Made by a program: the position numbers and the translations under genes. The notes below the pieces were generated by a model that was not told the origin of the DNA, searched no databases, and saw only the letters and a program-made list of their open reading frames with translations. Of a stretch of DNA of 32,154 nucleotides, positions 8,581 through 21,718 are shown one piece after another. The stretch comes from Clostridiales bacterium (GTDB lineage Bacteria; Bacillota; Clostridia; Lachnospirales; Lachnospiraceae). Every line of letters begins with the position of its first letter. Within the stretch, counting starts at the first letter, position 1. Location of the stretch: NCBI GenBank assembly GCA_021204765.1, contig JAJPYU010000235.1, forward strand, positions 1 to 32,154, given 5' to 3'.

Positions 8581-8605
8581 AAGGATTTTGGATTGGAGGT
8601 GTGTT

Positions 8606-10267
8606 TTGCAGGCGGACAATAAAAATTTAAAGATAATCCCTTTGGGTGGACTGGAATCCATAGGGATGAATATTACTGCCTTCGAGTACGATGACAGTAT
8701 TATTGTGGTAGACTGTGGTCTGGCGTTCCCCGAGGACGACATGTACGGCATAGATCTCTGTGTGCCGGTGATCACTTATTTACAAGATAATGCAGATAAG
8801 CTGAAGGCTTTTTTTATCACCCACGGACACGAGGATCACATCGGGGCTTTGCCGTATGTATTTAAGGAAATAATTGCTCCTGTCTATGCCACCCGCCTTA
8901 CCATGGGACTGATCGAACACAAGCTGGATGAGCATGAGATGCTGGATGTGGTAAAGCGCAAGGTAGTCAGCTACGGACAGCATATTAATGCCGGAAATTT
9001 CGGTGTGGAGTTCATCAGGACGAACCACAGCATACAGGATGCGGCGGCTCTGGCCATACACACACCGGTGGGCATAATAGTCCACACGGGGGATTTCAAG
9101 GTGGATTACACCCCGGTCTATGGAGACGCCATAGACCTGCAGCGTTTCGGTGAGCTTGGTAAGAAGGGAGTCCTTGCACTGATGTGCGACAGTACCAACG
9201 CTGAGCGGGCCGGTTTTACCATGACGGAGCGGACGGTAGGGAAGATCTTTGCAAATATTTTCTCCGAACATACCCATCAGAGGATCATTATCGCCACCTT
9301 TGCCTCAAATGTGGACAGGGTGCAGCAGATCATAGACACGGCGTATAAATTCGGGCGGAAGGTGGTTGTGGAAGGCCGCAGCATGGTGACTGTCATTGAG
9401 ATCGCCTCTGAGCTGGGATATCTCAATATTCCTCCGGACACACTCATTGAAGTCGATTATATGAAAAATTATCCGGATGAGAGGATGGTACTCATCACCA
9501 CCGGCAGCCAGGGTGAGCCTCTGGCGGCATTGTCACGGATGGCCAACGGAACCCACAGGAAAGTGAAGATCACGCCCAATGACCTCATCGTCTTCAGTTC
9601 GAATCCCATACCCGGAAATGAGAAGGCAGTATCGAAGATCATAAATGAGCTTTACCAGATGAGTGCTGAGGTCATTTTCCAGGACACTCACGTATCAGGC
9701 CATGCCTGCCAGGAGGAGCTTAAGCTTATCTACTCCCTTTTGCAGCCGAAATACACTATTCCCATCCACGGTGAGTTCCGCCACAGGAAGGCCCAGGCCG
9801 GTCTGGCGAAGGAGCTTGGCTGGGACAGTGAGCATATACTTATGCTGTCCTCGGGAGATGTGCTGGAGATGGACGGAGAGAGTGCGGAGATTACCGGAGA
9901 GGTGCCGGCGGGAACAGTCTTTGTTGACGGCCTCGGCATCGGTGATGTGGGAAATATCGTCATGAGAGACAGACAGCATCTGGCGGAGGACGGCATCATT
10001 ATTGTGGTGCTGGCCCTGGATGCGGAAAACGGCGAGCTTTTGGCGGGACCGGATATAGTCAGCCGCGGCTTTGTATATGTGAAGGAATCTGAGAGCCTCA
10101 TTGACGAGGCCCAGGAAGTGGTGAATGCGGCGGTATGCCGCATGATAGATCAGGGTATCACAGACTGGGGCAGGATCAAGTCTGAGATAAAGGATGACCT
10201 GGGAGAATACGTGTGGAGGACAACTAAGCGGAGGCCCATGCTGATGCCGATCATACAGGAAGTGTAA
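8606..10267 (+). CDS. rnj: Ribonuclease J (metallo-beta-lactamase/beta-CASP)
   Basis: KIIPLGGLESIGMNITAFEYDD, HGHEDHIGALPY, HTGDFKVDYTP, TTGSQGEPLAALSRMA, PIHGEFRHRKAQA. Probable TTG start at 8606 after gattGGAGGTgtgtt. Confidence 0.92.
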   Translation: MQADNKNLKIIPLGGLESIGMNITAFEYDDSIIVVDCGLAFPEDDMYGIDLCVPVITYLQDNADKLKAFFITHGHEDHIGALPYVFKEIIAPVYATRLTMGLIEHKLDEHEMLDVVKRKVVSYGQHINAGNFGVEFIRTNHSIQDAAALAIHTPVGIIVHTGDFKVDYTPVYGDAIDLQRFGELGKKGVLALMCDSTNAERAGFTMTERTVGKIFANIFSEHTHQRIIIATFASNVDRVQQIIDTAYKFGRKVVVEGRSMVTVIEIASELGYLNIPPDTLIEVDYMKNYPDERMVLITTGSQGEPLAALSRMANGTHRKVKITPNDLIVFSSNPIPGNEKAVSKIINELYQMSAEVIFQDTHVSGHACQEELKLIYSLLQPKYTIPIHGEFRHRKAQAGLAKELGWDSEHILMLSSGDVLEMDGESAEITGEVPAGTVFVDGLGIGDVGNIVMRDRQHLAEDGIIIVVLALDAENGELLAGPDIVSRGFVYVKESESLIDEAQEVVNAAVCRMIDQGITDWGRIKSEIKDDLGEYVWRTTKRRPMLMPIIQEV

Positions 10268-10280
10268 CACAAGGGTACAG

Positions 10281-10319
10281 AAGTCAGACAATAGATGCTG
10301 GCATCTGATTGGCTGACTT
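10281..10319 (+). repeat. Nested hairpin after RNase J
   Basis: AAGTCAG (10281-10287) / CTGACTT (10313-10319) enclosing AGATGC-tg-GCATCT. Confidence 0.6.
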
Positions 10320-10325
10320 GGGGAT

Positions 10326-10536
10326 CCGCAAAAACATGAGTAAGAAGCCATTTTTCGAAGAAAAATGGGCGGATTACGATGCTACGAACACTTAGCAAGC
10401 TTAAGCGAGCTTACACATTGAACACTTAGCGACTGCGAAGCAGGAGCTTAGTGAGAAAGCGTGCAGAGCAGTGTGAGTGTATGCATAGCAATGTTTTCAG
10501 GATTGCGGGAACTCGAAGAGTGGAGCAATCCGTGTG
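10326..10536 (+). repeat. Dispersed structured repeat, copy A
   Basis: Alignable end to end with 16289-16497. Core 10376-10485 matches 16337-16446 with one mismatch. Contains three hairpins with GAA loops. Confidence 0.93.
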
Positions 10537-10561
10537 TTACAGAAGAATAGGAGGGGATAAA

Positions 10562-10894
10562 ATGGAGGATTACAACAACAGTCTTGACGCACTGGTGGAG
10601 GCTGTGAAGGCCAGCCCCCAGCTTAAACGTTACAAAAAGGCAGTGGAGCAGGTGGAGGATCATCCGGATAAAATAGCCCGGCTCCACGAGTTTCGTACCA
10701 AGACCTACGAGCTGCAGAATAAGGGGGACACAGTGGATATGTTCGCCGAGATGGACAGGCTGGCAGACTCATTTCATGATGTCTACCAGGATGACATAAT
10801 GAAAGAGTATGTCAACGCTGAGATAGCCCTCTGCAAGATCGTCCAGCACATTGAGCGGGAGATCATCGGCTGTCTGGATTTTAAGGAGATCTGA
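10562..10894 (+). CDS. YlbF/YmcA family protein
   Basis: MEDYNNSLDALVEAVKASPQLKRYKKAVEQVEDHPDKIARLHEFRTKTYELQN...; RBS aggagggg upstream of ATG 10562. Confidence 0.82.
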   Translation: MEDYNNSLDALVEAVKASPQLKRYKKAVEQVEDHPDKIARLHEFRTKTYELQNKGDTVDMFAEMDRLADSFHDVYQDDIMKEYVNAEIALCKIVQHIEREIIGCLDFKEI

Positions 10895-16117: not shown

Positions 16118-16158
16118 GTTGCATTTCAGGCGTCACTTGGTGACGTCTGAAATGCAAC
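16118..16158. repeat. 19-bp stem, 3-nt loop hairpin
   Basis: GTTGCATTTCAGGCGTCAC (16118-16136) - TTG - GTGACGTCTGAAATGCAAC (16140-16158), one G-T wobble. Confidence 0.9.
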
Positions 16159-16288
16159 ATTGATCCTCACCGCAGGGATATGCCGGTTAAGTATTCCTTG
16201 ATTTATACCCACAAAAATGGTAGGATATAACACCAGGGGACAATAGCCGTGAAAAAGACGCCTGAATCCGATTTCATGGATATTGGAA

Positions 16289-16497
16289 CCGCTAAATATG
16301 AGTGAGAAGCCATTTTTTCAAAAAAATAAGCGGATCACGATGCTACGAACACTTAGCAAGCGTAAGCGAGCTTACACATTGAACACTTAGCGACTGCGAA
16401 GCAGGAGCTTAGTGAGAAAGCGTGCAGAGCAGTGTGAGTGTATGCACAGCTATATTTTCAGGATTGTGAGAGCACGGAGTGCGGAGCAATCCGTGTG
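16289..16497 (+). repeat. Dispersed structured repeat, copy B
   Basis: Second copy of 10326-10536. Terminal hairpin 16461-16492 conserved by compensatory substitution. Confidence 0.93.
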
Positions 16498-16529
16498 ATC
16501 ATGTATATTTTGATAATGGGAAGAATATC

Positions 16530-21475: not shown

Positions 21476-21718
21476 ATGGTCGCGCAGGTAAAAGCATGGG
21501 GAAATGGCCAGGGAGTAAGATTTTCCAAAGAGTTACTTGAAACTCTTGGGATCCATCTTAATGATTATCTTCAGGTTAAAGTTGTAAATGAAGATATAGT
21601 TTTATCCAAAACCTTTAAACATAAAACTTTAGAAGAACGCACTGCGGAATGTGGTGGAAAGCTTGGGCCATATGAGGAGTCCGATTGGGGTGAGCCTGTG
21701 GGAAGAGAGGTATGGTAG
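21476..21718 (+). CDS. AbrB/MazE-like antitoxin
   Basis: MVAQVKAWGNGQGVRFSKELLETLGIHLNDYLQVKVVNEDIVLSK, typical swapped-hairpin AbrB N-terminus; 3 nt upstream of toxin ORF. Confidence 0.88.
   Translation: MVAQVKAWGNGQGVRFSKELLETLGIHLNDYLQVKVVNEDIVLSKTFKHKTLEERTAECGGKLGPYEESDWGEPVGREVW

Follow-up and report, generated by a model that had tools for sequence, protein, structure and literature searches.

Clostridiales-1 RNA (RF01699) is probably a transposable element of the MITE type, and a remnant of it lies between the RNase J and ylbF genes

The window analysed here, a stretch of 32,154 nucleotides, raises the question of why one structured repeat of about 210 nt should stand in front of two unrelated genes. 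An earlier note made from the DNA letters had described two copies of it, A and B, and its observations hold. The copies align over 10326-10536 and 16289-16497 (BLASTN E=1.1e-76), with a near-identical core (107/108 bases between 10378-10485 and 16339-16446) set between flanks that agree at 42/52 and 41/51 bases. Both lie on the + strand and end 26-33 nt 5′ of a start codon, that of ylbF (ATG 10562) after copy A and that of a Na+/H+ antiporter gene (ATG 16530) after copy B. The 3′ hairpins also are as described, the inner stem ACTC/GAGT of one corresponding to GCAC/GTGC of the other through two compensatory pairs, with one outer C-G pair becoming U.G. From this the note read selection on structure, and either a mobile structured element or a shared 5′-UTR regulator, a reading that is partly supported by what follows.

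Copy A belongs to a known RNA family, Clostridiales-1 (RF01699), catalogued as a candidate sRNA (Weinberg et al., 2010, PMC2864571). The Rfam match has E = 3e-14 and contains a large insertion (Table 1), while copy B, a decayed element, reaches 39 bits over 16332-16501, below the 48-bit cut-off. The earlier note had named an Rfam family that fully explained the repeat as the finding that would count against it; such a match exists, but it is not a full explanation because Rfam lists no function for RF01699. The boundaries given there were too narrow, as the outer stem and hairpin 1 lie ~60 nt further 5′ and the element spans 10265-10539, and the core that had been taken as the conserved heart of the repeat is a nested insertion, element X, foreign to the RF01699 RNA. 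Copy A has the RF01699 consensus fold, in which P1 encloses hairpins 1-3. Its predicted structure (-96.7 kcal/mol, z = -6.1) retains P1 together with hairpins 1 and 3, while X forms an arm of its own, and the P1 5′ arm supplies the stop codon of the RNase J gene (TAA, 10265-10267). Its left terminal end is diverged, and neither a right terminal repeat nor a target duplication is seen.

Table 1. Positions in the window of copies A and B, their parts and the genes adjoining copy A.
Feature	Position	Strand	Basis
Copy A: RF01699 (Clostridiales-1), interrupted by X, lacking the right terminal repeat	10265..10539	+	Rfam cmscan 72.2 bits, gathering 48
Copy A, P1 5′ arm (TGTAACACA)	10263..10271	+	fold; inverted repeat 10263-10274 / 10530-10541
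Copy A, hairpin 1	10273..10327	+	fold, Rfam alignment
Copy A, hairpin 2 with inserted X arm, ends approximate	10331..10496	+	fold, Rfam alignment
Copy A, element X, long form of 111 nt, in hairpin 2 after CGA	10380..10490	+	junction against uninserted copies; other X copies
Copy A, second X-like insert of 57 nt, nested in X	10414..10470	+	comparison with short X of L023, L027, L029
Copy A, hairpin 3 (the covarying 3′ hairpin)	10500..10531	+	fold, covariation
Copy A, P1 3′ arm (TGTGTTACA)	10533..10541	+	fold, inverted repeat
Copy B: decayed RF01699 element	16227..16501, 5′ end approximate	+	5′ part homologous to L009 and other copies
Copy B, element X, insertion point as in copy A	16341..16451	+	
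Copy B, second X-like insert inside X	16375..16431	+	
Copy B, hairpin 3	16461..16492	+	
RNase J gene, directly 5′ of copy A	8588..10267	+	Pfam RNase_J domains
ylbF gene, directly 3′ of copy A	10562..10894	+	Pfam Com_YlbF

Copy A thus sits between the RNase J and YlbF genes (8588-10894). Both proteins are thought to function in mRNA decay, and the placement between two such genes is probably a coincidence. Elsewhere in the window, a nearly perfect 41-nt palindrome, GTTGCATTTCAGGCGTCACTTGGTGACGTCTGAAATGCAAC, lies at 16118-16158, 3′ of the chorismate synthase gene and 5′ of copy B. Further 3′ are a MazF/PemK-like toxin gene (PF02452; 21722-22033, +), preceded by a small gene (21476-21718, +) that resembles a MazE/AbrB-type antitoxin and has no Pfam match, and a formate-tetrahydrofolate ligase fragment of 123 aa (PF01268; 22046-22417, +), with two matched stretches of which the better covers profile positions 1-72 of 556; this fragment is probably an internally deleted pseudogene.

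The evidence for mobility comes from the family. Complete RF01699 copies elsewhere in Lachnospiraceae measure ~183-210 bp and consist of a left terminal inverted repeat, GATRYYRGGGTCAAAAGG, hairpins 1-3 closed by P1, and a right-hand tail that repeats the left end in inverted orientation and is omitted by the Rfam model. With the ends set at GAT...ATC, exact target-site duplications of 7-9 nt flank 38/65 distinct element pairs, a fraction that is conservative because the 65 include a few sub-matches of larger elements; when flanks are swapped among elements, 2000 trials average 1.6 such pairs and never exceed 7. A first estimate of 5-6 nt for the duplication was replaced once the ends were fixed in this way. 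At locus L001, one copy is inserted in hairpin 1 of another, with ATAGTAT duplicated on either side; when these flanks are joined, they fold into that hairpin again. Empty sites are also present, as the RNase J-ylbF spacer is element-free and 6-158 nt long in 18 congeners and 294 nt long here. The note's mobile structured element is therefore borne out for the family.

Shorter derivatives indicate which parts movement would need. In Muricomes intestini (strain DSM 29489 has 95 terminal-repeat sites), 69-nt elements made of the terminal repeats and hairpin 1 carry duplications, as does a 36-nt element made of the terminal repeats only; three apparent 36-nt mini-elements were rejected as sub-matches of longer elements. 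Because these derivatives bear duplications without hairpins 2 and 3, those hairpins appear dispensable for movement, although deletion after insertion could account for single mini-elements. By eye, variant terminal repeats (GAGACAAGCGGCAAAAGG, GATACAAGGGACAAAAGG and others) at L199, L130, L230, L140 and L184 change together at both ends and keep 7-nt duplications, which suggests that there may be several co-evolving types of mobiliser.

Elements of the family range over 36-303 nt, contain no transposase gene and are dispersed in multiple copies; they have terminal inverted repeats, of which copy A keeps a diverged left end only. The terminal repeats, the target duplications and the element-free RNase J-ylbF junction lead us to conclude that the candidate sRNA RF01699 is very probably a MITE and copy A its remnant. 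The mobility of copy A itself is inferred from the family, because this copy has neither the right terminal repeat nor a duplication. Its diverged left end, missing right end and intact stems together indicate an old, immobile resident that would now be fixed inside the RNase J-ylbF operon.

The search for further copies that the note had proposed finds at least 28 above the cut-off in the 1.96-Mb genome of origin, with 52 matches at E<1e-3, and the family in relatives, for a total of 33/61 genomes searched (own genome and relatives) against 0/14 control genomes. Several contigs of the assembly (C63, C131, C172, C250, C266) begin inside RF01699 or its terminal repeats, and the true copy number is therefore probably above this count. 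Among GTDB species genomes, the matches listed for the hairpin 3 pattern carry record titles that name Lachnospiraceae, genera commonly assigned to that family, or clostridia without further detail. In the closed genome G057, which belongs to another family, five RF01699 units of ~150 nt each form a tandem array in one intergenic region (C1:1032209-1032955, L462), with further tandem pairs at 766 kb, 880 kb and 2261 kb. A viral origin was considered and rejected, since the hairpin 3 pattern has no match in IMG/VR and the two terminal-repeat matches there fall within long reading frames. On plasmids the full element has no match, and the 15 matches in phage records are all to unannotated human-faecal contigs.

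What the copies do where they reside is a separate matter, and two features bear on it. The first is the fold. Across 66 distinct 32-nt sequences of hairpin 3, each tested pair is formed in 63-66, and at all six varying pairs this exceeds every shuffle; for the three pairs of the inner stem that occur as more than one pair type, 63-66/66 are paired against at most 51-58 in shuffles, which ignore the relatedness of the sequences. The loci that came from the hairpin 3 pattern search were chosen for the outer stem and not for the nine inner positions. Judged on this comparative evidence, the view that the structure of hairpin 3 is under selection, as the note had argued from two copies, is right.

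The second feature is orientation. Between co-oriented genes, as called by a simple ORF caller, RF01699 copies lie 90 sense to 24 antisense (p=3.6e-10). In the first set, the copies lacking the right repeat stood at 24:3, and the excess was replicated in 100 newly fetched loci (39:12 for copies lacking that repeat, p=2e-4); copies that keep the right repeat stand at 19:5 over both sets. The median distance from the upstream stop codon to the start of a sense copy is 10.5 nt. Replication direction was rejected as the cause of the bias, as it predicts antisense copies in lagging-strand operons and 20-kb GC skew places 14/14 of them in leading-strand operons, skew and gene strand being correlated; the replichore test in G057 is alone too small. 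Instead of a positive function, the bias may reflect a transcription-linked insertion preference or the loss of harmful antisense copies.

These features allow a mechanism to be proposed. The RF01699 element would be moved in trans by a putative DDE-type transposase, leaving AT-rich target duplications of 7-9 bp. Where it landed between co-oriented genes, its transcript would be predicted to adopt a stable fold of several arms, and sense copies would be retained, the fold perhaps acting on the shared mRNA through end protection or processing between cistrons. For resident copies, the likeliest function seems to be a role of this kind after insertion, affecting how mRNA is processed or stabilised between cistrons, and we propose it tentatively from orientation, covariation and the analogy to REP and BOX repeats. 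It is possible, though short of probable, that Clostridiales-1 is a transposable RNA module, that is, a MITE with a multi-arm fold dispensable for jumping, which selection keeps through its action on the mRNA of the host operon. If true, Lachnospiraceae would receive ready-made intercistronic processing or stability elements, with loops that take further hairpins without loss of function.

The same mobility evidence would be expected of a purely selfish MITE, whose fold would persist only because its copies descend from folded masters that were active until recently, and whose sense bias would come from transcription-linked insertion or the purging of harmful antisense copies. This explanation has to be taken seriously, while falling somewhat short of an even chance: the sense excess of 19:5 is already present in copies with the right repeat, and the BOX, RUP and SPRITE repeats have been judged likely parasitic (PMC3049150). 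Against it, hairpins 2 and 3 look unneeded for movement, yet hairpin 3 covaries strongly, and the immobile copy A retains all its stems despite divergence. The combination of a sense bias with a covarying fold that movement seemingly does not need permits a direct test of whether mobile repeats give operons RNA control elements. The identification matters for annotation as well: a family of abundant gut bacteria that Rfam classes as an "sRNA", with no known function, would become a transposable element whose ends are exactly defined, and its copies would have to be annotated and tested accordingly.

The remaining explanations fare much worse. A cis-regulatory RNA, riboswitch-like and common to the 5′-UTRs of ylbF, the antiporter and other genes, which the earlier note had offered as the shared regulator, accords with the sense orientation, the nearby start codon and the conserved structure. 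It is nevertheless very unlikely, as the downstream genes are unrelated, the element is absent from the orthologous position in the 18 congeners, copies bear target duplications, and sense copies start shortly after the upstream stop codon (the median distance given above) and keep no fixed distance to a start codon. A trans-acting small RNA in many gene copies, corresponding to the Rfam type "Gene; sRNA" and to a conserved fold with covariation, is very improbable. It would have to be present dozens of times at dispersed sites in a genome, to carry terminal repeats and target duplications, and to follow the neighbouring genes in its orientation; furthermore, the sense strand of copy A has no internal promoter- or terminator-like site, with a weak promoter-like match at the 3′ edge only.

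It might also be supposed that copies A and B arose by recent duplication of a single 210-nt unit, and element X bears on this. Uninserted RF01699 copies read GCGGATTNCGAATGTTTTGAGGATTGC, and in copies A and B the junction CGA|ATG is broken by the 111-nt stretch X (TGCTACGAACACTTAGC...TAGCA). X is found apart from RF01699 at several places, and as a short form (51-55 nt) inside hairpin 3 of other RF01699 copies; within the long form lies another X-like insert (CACATTGAACACTTAGC...GAGCA), and at locus L045 the nesting reaches a third level. Every nested X seen is in the same orientation, the junctions of nested X are constant, and X inserts leave no obvious duplication. With 15 matches in its own genome and weak partial matches only, in four congeners, X is nearly restricted to that genome. 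In this genome a second hairpin family, X, has entered the loops of the RF01699 element, with X-like inserts entering X in their turn, and in copy A the insert is predicted to fold as an additional arm that leaves the RF01699 structure unbroken. The identical insertion point and the 99% identical core favour a recent duplication, but the RF01699 flanks are ~80% identical, the flanking genes are unrelated, and X also occurs alone and at other sites. Such a duplication is highly unlikely; the pattern is better accounted for by separate insertions of X or by gene conversion of the core. Another hairpin repeat, GGTCTACGCTCCGCTCCGGTC followed by a variable hairpin in which pairing is kept, occurs inside RF01699 copies of the same genome at three points, the hairpin 1/2 junction, hairpin 2 and hairpin 3 (L018, L022, L025, L027, L028, L029, L037, L042).

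With regard to the mobiliser, searches for a DDE transposase partner (PF01609, PF00872 and PF01610 in 8 genomes) found none with matching ends. In Muricomes intestini, candidate "autonomous" elements of 1.2-4.6 kb between distant terminal repeats proved to be intervals of ordinary genes, and the ends of L267 and L268, once read out, belong to separate small elements and not to an autonomous one. In a search of 61 genomes, a Y1/RAYT transposase (PF01797) was absent from the genome of origin, whose assembly is 92% complete, and from G011 and G021, each of which has ~30 RF01699 copies. Movement of a REP/REPIN-type repeat by a RAYT (Y1 tyrosine) transposase, to which the palindromic, intergenic, high-copy character and the X inserts without obvious duplication might point, is therefore already disfavoured for RF01699 and extremely unlikely, given that no such enzyme was found in these three genomes and RF01699 makes 7-9-nt duplications.

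Compared with what has been described, the present reading adds to Rfam RF01699, with which copy A shares P1 and hairpins 1-3 at a score above the gathering cut-off, a right terminal repeat that the Rfam model lacks and, in copies A and B, the nested 111-nt element. In the text of PMC2864571 we found no mention of RF01699 mobility, and in the open-licence literature no paper linking the two. The family resembles prokaryotic MITEs (reviewed in PMC10969869) in its terminal inverted repeats, 7-9-nt duplications, small size, non-coding character and stable transcript fold; it differs in that a partner insertion sequence was not found, and in an interior fold that shows covariation across the family and that movement seems not to need. 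REP, BIME and REPIN sequences with RAYT (PMC2817692, PMC3116915) are likewise high-copy intergenic palindromes, and they would work in a like manner through possible effects on mRNA ends; in contrast to these, the genome of origin has no RAYT gene, the RF01699 fold is larger and multi-arm, and target duplications are present. The BOX, RUP and SPRITE repeats of Streptococcus pneumoniae, taken as non-autonomous mobile elements, are also short, interspersed, structured and modular, and can provide the stop codon of the upstream gene (PMC3049150). Their host family is unrelated; BOX grows by boxB modules, whereas the loops of RF01699 receive foreign hairpin elements, and for RF01699 strong covariation and a sense bias are shown.
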